Source: a virus. From it: DNA of 30,396 nt. A program made the translations under genes and the position numbers. Where the stretch lies: the IMG/VR virus record IMGVR_UViG_3300014913_000053, positions 1 to 30,396 of that record; one strand, 5' to 3'. The notes under the pieces are model-generated. The model was not told the origin of the DNA, made no database searches, and worked only from the letters and a program-made list of their open reading frames with translations. How positions within the stretch are numbered: the first letter of the stretch is position 1; each line of letters starts with the position of its first letter. Below, piece by piece: positions 1,818-10,664 of the stretch.

Positions 1818-3449
1818 TCAATATCCCGCCAATTTCAGCATGTGACCGAGACTATTGCCAAGCTCATCAACCTGATCTTGACTATCGCCCCTGTGCTCCT
1901 CCAGTATCATCTCGTCTTTCTCACTTACACCACGACGTAAACTCTTTCGCATCGCTGTGAGGTCAGACTCAGAGACACTCCCTACACCTCTTTCCTGCAC
2001 CAACCTATCAACCGCGTCCTCGGAGTTTAAATCCTCCATCAGACCTAACAACTGTCCACCATTTGGCAACCCTGCAACCCTCTTGTGCTTATATGACTCA
2101 AGCTTGAGCCTGGATTCAGCGTTGCCAATCTCTGCTAGAGCTTCCTCTAGCCTGGCAGCAACCTCCTCCTTCTCCTCTTCAGCCTCTTGCACACGGCTCT
2201 CGGCATCACTAAGCCTAGAATCAGCCTTCATCCCAACGTCTACTGCTCTCTGCAATTTACTCTTCAACGCGCCCACCTTGTCATTCAGGTGGTCTATTTC
2301 CGATCTCAAGGAAGCATTTTCCTCCCTGATTTCAGCATCCTCTTCACTTACGCCAGTCTCACCTAGATCATCAGGAAGATCCGCGAGCACAGCCGCCAAC
2401 TTGTCATTAGCATCCTTGAGACTCGTGAACTTCTGACCACCCATCATCTTACGTACAGAATCAGCCATGGGGTGATTACTCACCTTACGCTCAACCAGGT
2501 ACATGCACCCTATCTGTAACGCCTCATCCTCGGCCTCATCAGCTCTGCCTACAGCCTCCGCAACCTCAAGCTCCTTGGCCTTTAGCGCGTCAGACATTGC
2601 AAGCTCATCAGCTTCTGCTCGATAAGGAGCAACCATCTCCCAAATAGCAGCCAGGATCGCTTTCGAGCCACCAACATTAGGATCTGACTCGTACTCTTCT
2701 CGGATGTCACCGGCGATGTCATCCCTGGCTTCCATTAAGGTGCTGGCAAGTTGCTTCTCAAAGTTCTCAGTGAGCTTATCCTTGCTCTCCTTGACAGCCG
2801 CCTCAACAGCCGCGTCCACACCACGGTCAACCCTAAGCTTCGCCCTGCTGATAGCATCCTCTTGAAGCCTCTCGGCTATTTCAGGAAATTCAGACATGAA
2901 CATCTCTGCAATGTCAGGACGATCAATTTCAAGATCCTCATCCTCGGTATAGATCCCAGGAATCGCAGTCCTCACCGCTGGATCGGCAACGAAATCCCAA
3001 GTCTTCAAAACGAAATCATCCTGAACAATCTCGCCTTCCATCTTGGGATTGTTAGATGGCCGCGTAGATCCCAGACCTCTCGATGAGACACCAACCTGGA
3101 CATTCGCCTCAATAAGAGCCTTAAGATTCTTACCCTTCTTGGTGTTGAGTATCTCTGCCTCACCTACAATAATGCCATCCTTGATCTTCAGGCTGGTTAT
3201 CACATGAGACACGTCATCCAGCGACGTCCTGCCATTCTCAGGATGATCAAGAGTACCAACAACACCACGATTCGCCAGCTTCTCAGACAGCCGTTCAATC
3301 TCCCGCTGCATCAATTGCGCAGGATAGATCCTACCATTAGCAGTAGGTACATCAACACGTCCAAACTCACCACGAGCAATATACTTTCCTCCTGCACTTT
3401 CGACCATTGTCATATGTACAGAAGTAGTCTCAGTCAGCACCTTAGTCAT
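1818..3449 (-). CDS. Prohead protease-scaffold fusion
   Basis: 543 residues. Residues 20-165 look like the gp21-type prohead protease: GEFGRVDVPTANGRIYP, then TLDHPENG with the likely catalytic His69, then VQVGVSSRGLGS with the likely nucleophile Ser122 or Ser123, and DFVADPA at 153-159. The remaining 370 residues are acidic and largely coiled coil (about 340-500), as expected of a gp22-type scaffold core. T4 makes these as two proteins; here they are one chain. The start at 3449 is chosen because AAGGGGATAAG precedes it and the previous small gene ends one base upstream. A longer in-frame reading from TTG at 3602 would overlap that gene wholly. The protease should cleave the scaffold and capsid protein during head maturation. 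Confidence 0.85.
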   Translation of the reverse strand: MTKVLTETTSVHMTMVESAGGKYIARGEFGRVDVPTANGRIYPAQLMQREIERLSEKLANRGVVGTLDHPENGRTSLDDVSHVITSLKIKDGIIVGEAEILNTKKGKNLKALIEANVQVGVSSRGLGSTRPSNNPKMEGEIVQDDFVLKTWDFVADPAVRTAIPGIYTEDEDLEIDRPDIAEMFMSEFPEIAERLQEDAISRAKLRVDRGVDAAVEAAVKESKDKLTENFEKQLASTLMEARDDIAGDIREEYESDPNVGGSKAILAAIWEMVAPYRAEADELAMSDALKAKELEVAEAVGRADEAEDEALQIGCMYLVERKVSNHPMADSVRKMMGGQKFTSLKDANDKLAAVLADLPDDLGETGVSEEDAEIREENASLRSEIDHLNDKVGALKSKLQRAVDVGMKADSRLSDAESRVQEAEEEKEEVAARLEEALAEIGNAESRLKLESYKHKRVAGLPNGGQLLGLMEDLNSEDAVDRLVQERGVGSVSESDLTAMRKSLRRGVSEKDEMILEEHRGDSQDQVDELGNSLGHMLKLAGY

Positions 3450-3450
3450 C

Positions 3451-3594
3451 TTATCCCCTTTTGCCGGTCTTCCCGCGCCAGCGTCTGATTCGTGTTCTAG
3501 CAATAGGGTTCCTGTCGAGTTTCCTCTTAGCTTCAGGGGAGACTCGTCTATCCGTTTTTTTGCCATCCGCACGAGCCATTTTCTTGAGTGACAC
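3451..3594 (-). CDS. Small highly basic head-operon protein (47 aa)
   Basis: A 47-codon frame starting at GTG 3594, or 42 codons from ATG 3579. AAGGAGG lies 11 bases before the GTG. The product is very basic (KRKLDRNPIARTRIRRWRGK), and its stop TAA at 3451-3453 lies one base before the protease start. It sits between the 309-residue core-like protein and the protease, where T4 has the small prohead core proteins gp67 and gp68. A DNA- or scaffold-binding core protein is a reasonable guess, but there is no recognisable domain. An alternative explanation is a 5' extension of the protease in another frame, but the exact junction and strong ribosome site favour a separate gene. Confidence 0.65.
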   Translation of the reverse strand: MSLKKMARADGKKTDRRVSPEAKRKLDRNPIARTRIRRWRGKTGKRG

Positions 3595-3668
3595 AAAACC
3601 AACTGCCTCCTTACGCCCAGACGAGGTGCCTAGTCTTCTTCGCCAGACAGCCTCACCAAGACGCTTGA

Positions 3669-4598
3669 TCAGTTTCCCGACATACCCTCAATCTTATCCA
3701 TCGAACGGTGGATAAGCATGAGCGCAGGCTTGATCTCGGCTATAAATTCATCTTCATCCATGACGTCCTCATCAAGGCGTCCAGACTCCCAAGCCGCATC
3801 AATCGACTCATAGGTGTTTACCAGAACCTCAGTCACGGAATCATCCAGGAACTCCTCATGGATTAGCAGCATGATATTGGCCACACTCTCCATGATGTCA
3901 TCACGTACAGTTTCCTTCTCAGATTGAACATCCTCCACCAAAGAGTTAAGCTCCAACGCGAGCGAAGAAACATTAACATCCTCACGCCTGGCAGCCCAGC
4001 GACTCGACTTGCGAGCAGACTTTTTGCCAAGACCGCTCTTTGACCATCGTTTTTTCTTGCGAGCCATCTTCTTCAACTTGCCCGCACCACCAGCAGCTTT
4101 AGCAGCTCTGACGCACCTACGACCAGACTTGTCCTTCGGATCTTTCCTGGTACCTTCTGGACACTGGATTGATTTCTTCTTGGACATCTTGCCAGCCCTG
4201 GCGCGGCGTATCCGCTTGCCAACGACCTCAAGTAGGTGATCAATAATCTCTTCGGCTCGCTCTTTAAGCTCATCGCTGGCATCATCAGGAAGGTTCTTTT
4301 CCTTGAGAGCCTCAATAATCTCGTTAACGTCATCCTCATCCATGCTCTCGAAAGGAAGAGCCATAATAGATTCAAACAACTCAAAATTGACATCAGGATC
4401 TTCGAGCGGATCGTAACCCTCACCAACGCTGTCAAGGTCGGAATCGTCCTCGTCAGCATCCAGATCCAGGTCGAATCCTTCGTCTTCCTCTGTCAGGGGT
4501 GTACCACTCAACTTAGCCTGATCGCGTACGGACATCCTGTTGATACCCAATGCGTCAAAGTCCTCATTAAGAGTGCTAGTAATTCCACGCTGTGCCAT
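3669..4598 (-). CDS. Putative prohead core protein with alternating acidic and basic blocks
   Basis: 309 residues with sharply segregated charge. Residues 33-75 are Asp/Glu-rich, 125-210 are Lys/Arg-rich (including KKKSIQCPEGTRKDPKDKSG and many KK/RR pairs), and 225-309 are acidic and helical. Two Cys flank the CPEGTRKDPKDKSGRRC segment. No enzyme motif is visible. Its position between portal and protease genes, and its charge pattern, suggest a prohead core or internal head protein that contacts DNA; this is inference. The start has GAGGAG 8 bases upstream. It lies 16 bases after the 281-residue gene. Confidence 0.8.
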   Translation of the reverse strand: MAQRGITSTLNEDFDALGINRMSVRDQAKLSGTPLTEEDEGFDLDLDADEDDSDLDSVGEGYDPLEDPDVNFELFESIMALPFESMDEDDVNEIIEALKEKNLPDDASDELKERAEEIIDHLLEVVGKRIRRARAGKMSKKKSIQCPEGTRKDPKDKSGRRCVRAAKAAGGAGKLKKMARKKKRWSKSGLGKKSARKSSRWAARREDVNVSSLALELNSLVEDVQSEKETVRDDIMESVANIMLLIHEEFLDDSVTEVLVNTYESIDAAWESGRLDEDVMDEDEFIAEIKPALMLIHRSMDKIEGMSGN

Positions 4599-4614
4599 TT
4601 TTCTCTCCTCGTTG

Positions 4615-5460
4615 TCAGTGGGTTGTGGTTTGTCGTTCTAGGTATTTGGCCACAACCGCCATTTGTTTCACTCGCTCAGCAAGCCTATCGTGTGCTACTG
4701 CCACGCGACCAACACTTCTAGGTCGCACCAACTGTCCAGCCTTGCTGAGCAAGCTCGAAATGGCTTGCGCTTCAACTTTCAACGATTCGCAAATAGCACC
4801 AAAGAACTCATCTTCTCTATCAAAAACCATTTTTTCACATTCGTCAACTATTTCTTTTGACAAAACAGATAATAGTTTTACCGAGTCAGTCAACTCTTCC
4901 TCGAATGCGCCTATCTTACTGTTGGCAATCTTGGCAAACCTTGTATCAGGGAAAGGCGACTCAATATCGCGAATATTGCCATACAGCGACGTTCGTATTT
5001 TCTCTTGATTGGCCTCGTACATCTCGTACCACTTGGAATCTGACATGCGCTCATCAATATCCTCAACAATATCATCAATCCAGTAATACTCATCCCTGCG
5101 CATCATCTGGAAAAGCTCGCGAACTTGAGTTCGCACCATCGGCTTCCCATCCATGGCACCCTCTACCAGTTTGCCAATCTGCTCAGACACAAACACCGGA
5201 ACGTCAGCATCCTCAACCACGCTAATCTCTTTTGTGCCCTTCACTTCAACATTAGAGACCTTGCCATTCTTGAAGGCAAATTTTGCCTTGAGCACGTTGC
5301 CATCATCGTCCAGCATATAAGCGTGATTTTCATGAGTAGCCAACATGGTCAAGCTGGATCCCTGATAAGCCTCACCAATAGCCTCACCGATAATATCAGC
5401 CCTATGCTCCAGGCTACCCTTGTACTTCTTCTCTATCGCAGACCCTTGAATAAACGGCAT
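4615..5460 (-). CDS. Head-region protein of unknown function
   Basis: 281 residues, not recognised. The N-terminal third (about 40-85) is beta-rich with a DDDGNVLKAKFAFKNGKV hairpin-like stretch. The middle is acidic and aromatic (RRDEYYWIDDIVEDIDERM), and the C-terminal half is helical. It lies 9 bases after the portal stop and just before the core-like protein, so a role in prohead assembly is likely from context only. The start follows AGGAGGATACG. One copy of the dispersed palindrome GCGAACTTGAGTTCGC (5119-5134) lies inside the gene, encoding part of VRTQVRE. Confidence 0.8.
   Translation of the reverse strand: MPFIQGSAIEKKYKGSLEHRADIIGEAIGEAYQGSSLTMLATHENHAYMLDDDGNVLKAKFAFKNGKVSNVEVKGTKEISVVEDADVPVFVSEQIGKLVEGAMDGKPMVRTQVRELFQMMRRDEYYWIDDIVEDIDERMSDSKWYEMYEANQEKIRTSLYGNIRDIESPFPDTRFAKIANSKIGAFEEELTDSVKLLSVLSKEIVDECEKMVFDREDEFFGAICESLKVEAQAISSLLSKAGQLVRPRSVGRVAVAHDRLAERVKQMAVVAKYLERQTTTH
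5119..5134. repeat. Dispersed palindrome copy A
   Basis: GCGAACTTGAGTTCGC inside the 281-residue head gene. The 7-base arms are perfect. It is read as part of VRTQVRE, a frame different from the other copies. Confidence 0.8.
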
Positions 5461-7136: not shown

Positions 7137-10100
7137 TTAGTCTCCAAACAGAATAGGTACGTAGTCGCTGTCTTGCGCATCTTCTGCCATTTCTCGCGCC
7201 TCAGCAATATCCACCTGGGAAGCCGGAACCAAGGGGCTCACCCACGAGTTATCACCTTTCCCTTGTATACCCTTATCAGGTATCATGTCAATTGGCAAGC
7301 GTGTTGATCTGATAGATAATCCATAAATAGCACCTGCTACTGCATCTGCGATATCCTTAGAATTATGAACGAACACGCCAGATGCTAACGCAAAATTCGA
7401 AAAAACATCCACCTCAAGGTCATACACAGGCACCGCAACCTCTAGCTTAACAGGAATAACATATCTCACCTTGTGGTTTTTACCAATCTCAGACGCAAGA
7501 AAATCCTCCCAATTCTTAAATCCATTTTCACGCAGAACCCTCATAACAACATTGCGTCCACAATTCAAAGATCTAGCAGCAGCGTTAGCATTTTCCTCAG
7601 AGCGAACACTGTTGAGTGACTCAAGATCTATATCAGATCTGAAATTGCGATTTTTATGGGCACGTCTTATATAATCTTCTGTCGTAGAAGACTTATGAAG
7701 ACGAGACATTGCCTCACTATGAACACGTCTCCCACGTTCACTGGTATTAAACCGCTGTAACCCCTCAGCTACCTTTTTGGTGTACTCACCACTTTCACGA
7801 TGTCGCATCAATGTATGATGATAAGCATGAAAAGATTTCGACTCACACGCCAGGTTAGCCAAAGCGTTATCAACCTTGCAACCATTAAGATGATGTACAC
7901 ATTTGTCATTACTGATATCATCATAATGGAACGACCAAACCAAATGATGAGTCAACGTCCTCCTGCCATGAGAGTCAGAAACCCGCTCATACCCCCCGTT
8001 AACCGGCCATATCCGGCTGATAGGCATCAACCTGTCCACGCCAGGACGGAGCATGTCAGCACGTTTATACGTACCGTCCCGCAACATCCAAAAATGCTCC
8101 GGTGTACACCTCTCAACAGCCCCGCTATCCAAAACAATATCTACAAAATCCGTCACGTACTTTGTTAGACGACCACGCGCAATTCCAGGAACAATCCTGC
8201 CATTCTGTGTACATGAATAAAGTTCAACCTCTTTGCCCGCAAGCTCGGAAATCATCGGACAACTTCCATCCAGTAAAGGTATTCTGGTGCTACCAACAAA
8301 ACACCCAGCCTCTGGATGATCGATTTTACCTCTCAGCCTGTCATACTCAAGGGTTTTAAGCTCTTCGATGAGAGGTTCATACTCATGAAAACGTATTCTC
8401 TTCTCATAAATCGCCCTCTTCAGCTCATCATAAGGGTTTGTCGTCTCATCCATAGAGATCAGCTCAGCATGAATCCCTCTACGCTTTATCTGTTGGTGCA
8501 TCTCCACATACTGATATTTGTCCGTGGAAAACCCCATAAACGAATAACCGTGCGTCGATAACTCATACACAAGCCGCCTTAAGTCAGGAAGATAAATCTG
8601 CTCCCCCGGTGGTGGATTTATCCTCAGCACAACATCCACATAAAAAGACGGCGCATAATCCACGTATTTCCTGCCATCCCCGTCTCTTCTCACAACCTCT
8701 ACCCACCTGTCAATATGAGCTACTGTAAACCCCGTGCTGTCACCACTTACAGACGTATCAATATGACACCACCTCAACGCCTTGGGGTTCACTTTGGGCA
8801 TGAAACCCTCTTCCGTATACCCCCCCGGCAACCTGCGCTCAAAACGCCTACATAGATATTTCCATCTAAATGCACCTGGCCCACCCGCTGTCCATTCGCC
8901 CATAGTAAACGCATGCTTTATTTCAGGATCTGCACACTCACGGATAGCCTCAGACCGCTGAATATATATTGACATAGCTTGCGTAGAAATACCGGCAATG
9001 TCCCTCAATGCATTCTCTATATCACTATCAAAATCATCCTTGTACTCAATAGGGACATCTAGCAACCAAGCATCATTGTCGTCCAAATACTCATCTGTAA
9101 TGACGTCGTACTCATCCTCCTCTAAAATCCTGGCCCGCAATGACGACGACGAACAGATAACCCAAAACTTCTCACCACAAAAATTCTCCCCAGGCTTTGC
9201 TGTCCAAGGAACATGATCTCTCACAAACACTTTCGGATCATCCCTCGAATCCTTGATCTTGCGCTCTGTAAAACTCTCCAACGTAGCCGCCGAAGACGCA
9301 AGAATGATCATCCCAGGAAAATCACCACCCGCCTTCATCATCCTGGATTTAATACGCCGCACCAAGTTGCGGTAGACCTTCTCTACAGGATCGTAATGCG
9401 CTCGTGTTCTACGCTGTCCAAACCCAGTAGTTATCTGTTGAGCTTTTCTGGCAGGAGGGAAATTTGTGTTATGCACCAAGAAACCTCCTGCAAAGAAGGT
9501 CTCATATTGAGTACACAAAGAATACGTCTGTTCTGAGGGCAATTCTCTTACAGACAAAACCTTCGTAAGAGCCAACCCTACAGGCAGATCATCAACCCTT
9601 AACGTCTCGTCCCTTACCCCTCTTGCGAACTTGAGTTCGCAGGAACCGTCGCCCTTCCCCCCGTCCTCCTCCTCAACCGTACTACTAACTCCCTCCGTAA
9701 CGATGCTGTCACCCGGTTTGATATTACAAGCATAGTCGTATACAAGCCAATCCCCACGCCTAACGAGCACTGGATGCTCAAGAGAAGGACTCATATCACC
9801 ATGCCCAGTTTTTATATTAACACGCCGCTGAATTGTCGATTTCTTTATCCGCCACCAACCACTCTTGACCTCTTTTTTTTCATGATCAAAGCCAAGCACC
9901 TCAACATAAGACTTCTCTGGATCACTCATCCTCCAAAGGTCACCAACCGTAACACTAGAAACCTCGCCATCACGAACCACTGACACAGATTGATCTTCAC
10001 CAAAACATTCATCTAAGCCGACACTAAAAACATTGGAACCAAGAATTCTCTCGCTTCCATATGAACCAATTATAACACGTATATTACTTGGAAACAGAGT

Positions 10101-10664
10101 GTATTCTTTAGAAATACGCGGCGTGAACTTCTCCATAAAATACGGTGACTCACGGATCTTGTCATCAATAGCCGTCTTCATAACCTGCCTGGCCAACGGT
10201 AGATTTTTTGAGATGAGCGGTATAACCATCTCAGTCCCTGTAGATAAACCGAAAGTCTTCTGAGGATCTATCAAGCATGAAAGTTCGTAGATAACACGAC
10301 ACAAAGATATTGACAGCAAAAATGTCTTTCCAACGCCGATCGCACCTGTCAATACAACTTCTCTGTAATTGTAATCAAAAAGATCTATCAGATCCTTCCT
10401 GAGTTCGGGATATAGTGTTTCACAAGATTCTCCCAAATAATAAGGATCGTCAATAAATTGCTCCATAGAAACAGGCTCTGTATGATACCTGTGGTCCATC
10501 AGTTCCTGCGTTGACTCCACACCATTTTCATCATCCTGCAAGATACCAAACAGTAATGCTCTCTCTTCAGGTGTGAGTGTAGACACCATATCCCCTGCTA
10601 CAGAGTCAATCTCATCAGGGGTTACTATCGAACGCTTACGCCCCTGTCTAGTCGTTATTATCAT
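7137..10664 (-). CDS. Terminase large subunit with two inteins
   Basis: 1175 residues in one frame. Removing residues 220-399 and 788-1101 leaves a 681-residue large terminase. ATPase: Walker A GAIGVGKT at 107-114 and Walker B VFSVGLDE at 212-219. Nuclease (RNase H-like): HIDTSVSGDSTGF at 634-646 with Asp636, then KIDHPEAG joined to SKDIADAVAG after splicing, with Asp1104 and Asp1107. Intein 1 starts at Cys220 directly after Walker B and ends HN, with Thr as +1 residue. Intein 2 starts at Cys788 and ends HN, with Ser as +1. Both interrupt the most conserved catalytic motifs, so packaging should depend on splicing. The start overlaps the preceding gene by 17 bases. The gene is followed two bases later by the portal. 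Confidence 0.95.
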   Translation of the reverse strand: MIITTRQGRKRSIVTPDEIDSVAGDMVSTLTPEERALLFGILQDDENGVESTQELMDHRYHTEPVSMEQFIDDPYYLGESCETLYPELRKDLIDLFDYNYREVVLTGAIGVGKTFLLSISLCRVIYELSCLIDPQKTFGLSTGTEMVIPLISKNLPLARQVMKTAIDDKIRESPYFMEKFTPRISKEYTLFPSNIRVIIGSYGSERILGSNVFSVGLDECFGEDQSVSVVRDGEVSSVTVGDLWRMSDPEKSYVEVLGFDHEKKEVKSGWWRIKKSTIQRRVNIKTGHGDMSPSLEHPVLVRRGDWLVYDYACNIKPGDSIVTEGVSSTVEEEDGGKGDGSCELKFARGVRDETLRVDDLPVGLALTKVLSVRELPSEQTYSLCTQYETFFAGGFLVHNTNFPPARKAQQITTGFGQRRTRAHYDPVEKVYRNLVRRIKSRMMKAGGDFPGMIILASSAATLESFTERKIKDSRDDPKVFVRDHVPWTAKPGENFCGEKFWVICSSSSLRARILEEDEYDVITDEYLDDNDAWLLDVPIEYKDDFDSDIENALRDIAGISTQAMSIYIQRSEAIRECADPEIKHAFTMGEWTAGGPGAFRWKYLCRRFERRLPGGYTEEGFMPKVNPKALRWCHIDTSVSGDSTGFTVAHIDRWVEVVRRDGDGRKYVDYAPSFYVDVVLRINPPPGEQIYLPDLRRLVYELSTHGYSFMGFSTDKYQYVEMHQQIKRRGIHAELISMDETTNPYDELKRAIYEKRIRFHEYEPLIEELKTLEYDRLRGKIDHPEAGCFVGSTRIPLLDGSCPMISELAGKEVELYSCTQNGRIVPGIARGRLTKYVTDFVDIVLDSGAVERCTPEHFWMLRDGTYKRADMLRPGVDRLMPISRIWPVNGGYERVSDSHGRRTLTHHLVWSFHYDDISNDKCVHHLNGCKVDNALANLACESKSFHAYHHTLMRHRESGEYTKKVAEGLQRFNTSERGRRVHSEAMSRLHKSSTTEDYIRRAHKNRNFRSDIDLESLNSVRSEENANAAARSLNCGRNVVMRVLRENGFKNWEDFLASEIGKNHKVRYVIPVKLEVAVPVYDLEVDVFSNFALASGVFVHNSKDIADAVAGAIYGLSIRSTRLPIDMIPDKGIQGKGDNSWVSPLVPASQVDIAEAREMAEDAQDSDYVPILFGD
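7362..8303 (-). mobile_element. Intein 2 (314 aa) with HNH endonuclease, in the terminase nuclease site
   Basis: Residues 788-1101 of the terminase. Block A is CFVGSTRIPLLDG; block B is near AVERCTPEHFWML; block F is VPVYDLEVDVFSNFAL; block G is GVFVHN followed by Ser. The middle holds an HNH homing endonuclease (HHLVWSFHYDDI, then CVHHLNGCKVDNALANL at 922-938). After that comes a basic helical segment and an HTH-like tail (NAAARSLNCGRNVVMRVL) that could read DNA. The insertion lies between HPEAG and SKDIADA. All splicing residues look present, so it is probably active. Confidence 0.93.
9468..10007 (-). mobile_element. Intein 1 (180 aa, mini-intein) at the terminase Walker B site
   Basis: Residues 220-399 of the terminase. 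Block A is CFGEDQSVSVVRDG; block B is GHGDMSPSLEHPVLV with the usual His; block F is EQTYSLCTQYETFFAGG; block G is FLVHN followed by Thr. No endonuclease is present; the linker (about 325-350) is short, acidic and Gly-rich. The penultimate His and terminal Asn are intact, so splicing is likely. One copy of the dispersed palindrome GCGAACTTGAGTTCGC (9625-9640) lies in this linker, where an endonuclease domain would normally sit. Confidence 0.9.
9625..9640. repeat. Dispersed palindrome copy B (inside intein 1)
   Basis: GCGAACTTGAGTTCGC in the linker of intein 1, read as CELKFA. Same sequence as copy A. Confidence 0.8.

Follow-up and report, generated by a model that had tools for sequence, protein, structure and literature searches.

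The large terminase subunit (TerL) of the virus considered here is, very probably, made as a precursor carrying two independent class 1 inteins, the first of which would be an endonuclease-less descendant of a dual-coding intein and the second of which carries a predicted HNH endonuclease. The window, i.e., the entire stretch of DNA that was analysed, is 30,396 nucleotides long and consists of positions 1 to 30,396 of IMG/VR record IMGVR_UViG_3300014913_000053. Among relatives, the intein found at the Walker-B position appears, with good probability, to keep its endonuclease as an independently translated gene, one that is read in the +1 frame across an expendable intein centre and which the window form has lost. 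The family to which these elements belong would then be a cis-splicing intermediate between ordinary endonuclease inteins and split, 'fractured' inteins.

By tblastn, the window TerL resembles the terminases of Vibrio, Rhodobacter, Maribacter, Rhizobium and other phages at approximately 29-34%. The motifs of a large terminase all are present as read with relatives aligned (GAIGVGKT, VFSVGLDE, HIDTSVSGD and SKDIADA), and the gene has as neighbours in the window genes for a T4-type portal, a prohead protease and a Gp23-type capsid protein. Joining exteins 1 to 3, that is, removing both inserts in silico, yields a 681-aa terminase (Table 1). The original prediction was of two inserts within this terminase, one per catalytic centre, and that prediction is upheld by their boundaries, by intein homology and by the existence of empty alleles. 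The insertion points are where they had been placed, intein 1 right behind NVFSVGLDE and intein 2 right behind KIDHPEAG, and in the span given for the pair, 7362-10007, the first coordinate indeed is where intein 2 ends and the second is where intein 1 starts. Recomputing from the 1175-aa ORF returns the same sizes of 180 aa and 314 aa and the same spliced length, while the Cys1, the final HN and the +1 residue (Thr for intein 1, Ser for intein 2) all can be read in the translated ORF. Pfam and PHROG matches agree that intein 1 is without an in-frame endonuclease and that intein 2 possesses an HNH domain. Homologous flanking exteins, also anticipated, are found in many IMG/VR relatives, whose TerLs of 681-686 aa are empty at both sites, 55-73% identical to that of the window and collinear with it end to end, i.e., through both junctions.

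Table 1. Features of the window terminase gene and of the Walker-B inteins of relatives.
Feature	Sequence	Position	Strand	Details
TerL precursor ORF, ATG start	window	7137..10664	minus	1175 aa (codons); PHROG terminase large subunit, E 7e-7; tblastn to phage TerLs
Extein 1, aa 1-219	window	10008..10664	minus	ATPase domain containing both Walker motifs, A and B; 60-76% identity to relatives
Walker A, GAIGVGKT	window	10323..10346	minus	without intein in window; motif reading
Walker B, NVFSVGLDE	window	10008..10034	minus	immediately before intein 1; motif reading
Intein 1, aa 220-399	window	9468..10007	minus	180-aa predicted mini-intein, DE/C...HN/T; sequence, profiles, tree
GGAGG in intein 1	window	9692..9696	minus	homologous to RBS position of relatives' out-of-frame endonuclease gene; putative vestige
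Extein 2, aa 400-787	window	8304..9467	minus	remaining ATPase and most of nuclease domain
Nuclease motif, HIDTSVSGD	window	8739..8765	minus	relative L149 has an intein here
Intein 2, aa 788-1101	window	7362..8303	minus	314 aa, EAG/C...HN/S; nuclease site
HNH_3 endonuclease domain in intein 2, aa 904-946	window	7827..7955	minus	Pfam PF13392
Extein 3, aa 1102-1175	window	7140..7361	minus	begins SKDIADA, third nuclease motif
Walker-B intein with +1-frame NUMOD3 and TnsA-like endonuclease gene	L012	3055-4509
Walker-B intein with +1-frame NUMOD3 and TnsA-like endonuclease gene	L013	2181-5009
Walker-B intein with +1-frame NUMOD3 and TnsA-like endonuclease gene	L019	2501-3925
Walker-B intein with +1-frame endonuclease gene	L139	4175-5587
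Walker-B intein with +1-frame endonuclease gene	L143	4160-5599
Walker-B intein with +1-frame endonuclease gene	L148	3818-5605
Walker-B intein with +1-frame endonuclease gene	L149	4139-6019

The Pfam profile Intein_splicing, when applied to the whole 1175-aa protein, scores 40.9 bits and passes its cut-off of 35.8. Applied to each intein alone it matches positions 12-180 of intein 1 (E 3e-4) and positions 17-314 of intein 2 (E 4e-7), in both cases under the curated cut-off. Block B reads SLEH and TPEH in the two inteins, i.e., (T/S)xxH, and both end in VHN; block F of intein 1 has Ser where Asp is usual. Across eight inteins of the Walker-B site, which are those of the window and of seven relatives, C1, S75-x-x-H78 and H179-N180 are invariant, and a profile built from these eight with their middle parts omitted matched nine PDB sequences, all nine of them inteins (best E 7e-6). 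The HNH domain of intein 2 is positioned between blocks B and F, with an HNH_3 match (E 3e-5) of 23.8 bits that is just below the cut-off of 24.8, and with matches as well to several PHROG HNH families at E values down to 4e-8. Both inserts therefore are read as class 1 inteins, predicted to be self-splicing, with intein 2 a full intein that possesses an in-frame, predicted HNH homing endonuclease. In the window and the seven relatives alike the terminase is a single ORF, with no intein halves in separate ORFs of the fractured-gene or split-intein kind. Intein 1 had no match among cultivated phages. Scanning viruses with intein 2 by itself gave no match either, though this search, being for close patterns only, also misses the known mini-intein of relative L013.

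Across the relatives, occupied sites are numerous. Lineages with an intein at the Walker-B site number seven, all of them divergent (L012, L013, L019, L139, L143, L148 and L149), with L014 and L016, being identical to L013, not counted as separate lineages. The window's nuclease site, EAG/S, is occupied also in L013, there by a 141-aa mini-intein that is 78% identical in its N part, while the L013 Walker-B intein is a full one of 943 aa. Inteins are seen at the Walker A site, GK/T, in eight relatives (L013, L017, L032, L033, L035, L042, L139 and L148), slightly upstream of the P-loop in three (L048, L139 and L143), at LEG/SIRD in L048, at SGD/S of nuclease motif I in L149, and at KD/C, three residues past the window's nuclease site, in L028 and L143. 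At the P-loop of L139 two inteins are separated by just six extein residues. The TerLs of this phage group, as judged from their sequences, thus accumulate inteins at catalytic motifs.

Other genes and arrangements were noted in passing. The terminase of L139 (1037-6970) has three inteins in its ATPase core, the first of which starts with Ser. Portal genes as well have inteins, at up to two sites (L002 7056-9749, L012 5904-8099, L013 6802-9675 and L017 6732-10601), with that of L012 in mini-intein form and the near-identical L008 empty there; no intein was recognised in the portal gene of the window. Upstream of the L017 terminase (1-2388) is a SNF2-type helicase gene with an intein-like insert. 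The window itself encodes, on its minus strand between 15743 and 27225, a Thg1-like guanylyltransferase, a DHH (RecJ-like) protein, an RlaP-family nucleotidyltransferase and a CCA-adding enzyme, i.e., RNA repair or tRNA enzymes; no tRNA genes were found in the window.

The Walker-B inteins of the seven relatives, all of them metagenomic contigs, are 471-943 aa in length, and their terminase frame is open throughout, with no known domain in the middle. The +1 frame over the same DNA instead encodes 321-805 aa consisting of NUMOD3 repeats, which exceed the Pfam cut-off in all seven, along with a nuclease domain. A model of the latter that was built from an alignment (pLDDT 92.6) has the TnsA transposition endonuclease as its best fold match (Foldseek E 3e-6, Z 10.5), and two of the seven lineages pass the Pfam TnsA-like cut-off. 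Catalytic-type residues E23, D62, E76 and K78, in alignment numbering, are invariant. The hidden nuclease is thus, based on this model, a TnsA-like PD-(D/E)XK enzyme and a predicted homing endonuclease. Its ATG is found 107-119 codons into the intein, directly past the GDxVV block. By sequence the nuclease matched PDB entries at chance level only; it had no match in cultivated phages, nor did the Walker-B intein of L019, and no relative turned up when 84,980 genomes of bacteria and archaea were scanned with the nuclease. For the L012 endonuclease, a model made from its single sequence was poor (pLDDT 45) and was discarded. The L013 version (2503-4920) has three tandem nuclease-like domains, with E-x-K lost in the second and the third.

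That this overlap DNA codes for two products is suggested especially by codon choice. A stop arises in the intein frame wherever an endonuclease codon ending in T precedes a codon starting with AA, AG or GA. Over the seven lineages, third-position T is present at 0 of 659 such stop-risk sites, versus 512 of 1553 (33%) elsewhere in the same genes (Fisher p per lineage 1.5e-6 to 2e-31), while no such avoidance is seen in other genes from these phages (T at 400 of 1322 stop-risk sites versus 1114 of 3392 elsewhere). One might suppose that base composition or codon bias suffices to leave the intein frame open, particularly as GC-rich lineages expect fewer stops, approximately 10 in L139 and L143. 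Permuting each gene's own synonymous codons, however, gave means of 9.7-43 stops and never left the frame open, versus none in any of the seven actual sequences, and among 79 other NUMOD3 ORFs every one has +1-frame stops, at no fewer than 3.2 per 100 codons. Together with the avoidance of T these results render the composition account practically negligible. A frameshift or assembly error as the origin of the overlapping frame was rejected as well, the same frame being found in seven lineages with the TerL frame unbroken in each. On the same DNA, furthermore, the endonuclease frame is 40-64% identical between lineages and the intein frame 17-44%, with the endonuclease higher in every pair and endonuclease codon position 3 the most variable. 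Given the T avoidance, the permutations, the controls and this endonuclease-frame conservation, the overlap is read as dual coding, with selection apparently acting on the endonuclease at the protein level and on the intein frame chiefly to keep it open; the intein presumably tolerates a long, unrelated linker there. How the endonuclease comes to be translated is a separate issue. Its being found every time in the same +1 frame could point to a +1 frameshift out of the intein N-part, giving rise to a fusion rather than to a product of internal initiation. We consider such a fusion quite unlikely, as all seven genes have a start codon that is preceded, 5-9 nt upstream, by a purine-rich, RBS-like sequence (GGAGG in four of the seven).

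Two further alternatives concern the window inteins themselves. Conceivably both inserts are domains built permanently into TerL and never spliced out, in favour of which the ORF continues unbroken through each. Each, however, splits a catalytic motif (Walker B in one case and the third nuclease acid motif in the other), each matches intein splicing profiles while retaining Cys1, the block B His, the HN end and a Thr or Ser at +1, and relatives lack exactly these two inserts, so that permanent insertion is very improbable. Turning to the origin of intein 1, no endonuclease ORF is present in it, with many stops in frames +1 and +2, nor was a NUMOD3/TnsA-like endonuclease gene found elsewhere in the window. 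In a tree of eight site-1 inteins, the inner forks of which are partly unresolved, intein 1 clusters with those of L012, L013 and L019 (96/96), and all other members bear endonucleases. Endonuclease genes can invade mini-inteins, and with those inner forks in mind intein 1 might instead be ancestrally endonuclease-free, with relatives acquiring the +1-frame gene later. Against such late gain, the deepest split has bearers to either side, with the window inside one of the two; the frame, the start position and the RBS-like site are common to all seven bearers; and the window retains GGAGG (9696-9692) at the relatives' RBS position, with the start codon after it absent. Late gain accordingly is judged unlikely. 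The simplest reading, as intein 1 is nested among bearers and has kept the GGAGG without its start codon, is that it is a mini-intein which descends from a dual-coding intein via in-frame deletion of the endonuclease gene, the order of loss being that which the tree suggests. The endonuclease tree puts L139 elsewhere than does the splicing-domain tree, with weak support, and no recombination is proposed on that basis.

It had been suggested, too, that the two window inteins are at different life stages, and this view gains substance from the seven relatives, whose Walker-B intein keeps the +1-frame endonuclease gene that the window copy has lost. The state of L013, which is reciprocal to that of the window, provides support as well: there it is the Walker-B intein which keeps its gene and the nuclease-site intein which has lost its endonuclease domain.

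Carriers are dispersed among empty terminases in the TerL tree. L012, which is occupied, and L008, which is empty at both the Walker-B and the portal sites, are 97.6-98.9% identical over most of their shared sequence near TerL. Over the 660 bp 5' of the insertion they differ at 12 positions, nine of which fall within the last 50 bp (p 1.5e-8). This tract, seen on the 5' side only, is suggestive of co-conversion, i.e., of flanking DNA having been copied during homing.

A published precedent exists for a terminase in which each domain holds one intein. The TerL of cyanophage Mic1 has an intein in its ATPase domain and another in its nuclease domain (PMC7156551, MN013189), to which the window adds another example. 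As in the window, one Mic1 intein has a homing endonuclease domain and one does not, but in Mic1 it is the ATPase-domain intein which has it and in the window the nuclease-domain intein. The sites also differ, those of Mic1, as read from its sequence, being LTG/C..HN/TPKG and QDHL/C..SN/CDALRY, versus LDE/C..HN/T and EAG/C..HN/S in the window. An overlapping-frame endonuclease is not reported for Mic1, unlike the site-1 relatives (PMC7156551). TerL inteins of mycobacteriophages are known from seven sites, all in the ATPase domain (Kelley 2016, PMC5050341), with splicing and cleavage shown by experiment for examples (PMC5050341). These resemble the window in their insertion at ATPase motifs, from which the window differs in having an intein in the nuclease domain.

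Comparable in their coding arrangement are the ShiLan domain and the Pacc40 insertion, in each of which a homing-type endonuclease is encoded out of frame within an insertion that is open in the host frame (Arsenault 2025, PMC11855218). Those insertions are not inteins, their enzyme is of the HNH type and an RBS is undetectable (PMC11855218), whereas the insertions in the relatives here are inteins whose enzyme combines NUMOD3 with a TnsA-like nuclease and whose RBS-like site is recognisable. Dassa 2009 is said to have described 'fractured genes', in which split inteins flank a free-standing endonuclease gene. Phage MIJ3 supplies an example of this arrangement (PMC6892783). Fractured genes are like the relatives in having the endonuclease as its own ORF between intein halves, but there each half has a gene of its own and splicing is in trans, while in the relatives one open frame allows for splicing in cis. 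A literature search of incomplete coverage returned no published intein whose endonuclease is encoded out of frame. The window, that is, is ordinary as a two-intein terminase, and what sets it apart is its place as a deletion form within a dual-coding intein family.

Put together as a mechanism, each window intein would cut itself out and ligate its flanks, resulting in the mature ATPase/nuclease, and as each insert lies within a catalytic motif, packaging would require both of these splicing events. In the relatives, the ribosome translating TerL would read through the intein frame, thereby producing an expendable linker, and a second ribosome, starting internally, would make the endonuclease. 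That enzyme may cleave empty terminase alleles, with the element then copied in. In the window lineage the endonuclease gene would have been deleted in frame, with splicing retained.

A two-intein terminase extends a known theme, that of catalytic-motif inteins in packaging enzymes. With the Walker-B inteins of the relatives, one DNA stretch read in two frames would belong at once to an essential gene, its intein and a homing endonuclease, and the selection which holds both of these frames open is readable in codon choice. They thus would be a genuine intein counterpart of the out-of-frame endonucleases of phage methylases, with the RBS-like site suggesting a route of translation. The near-identical pair of L012 and L008, occupied and empty, makes homing directly testable. 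Dual-coding inteins may represent as well a possible route to split inteins, as one stop in the linker would turn such an intein into a fractured gene.
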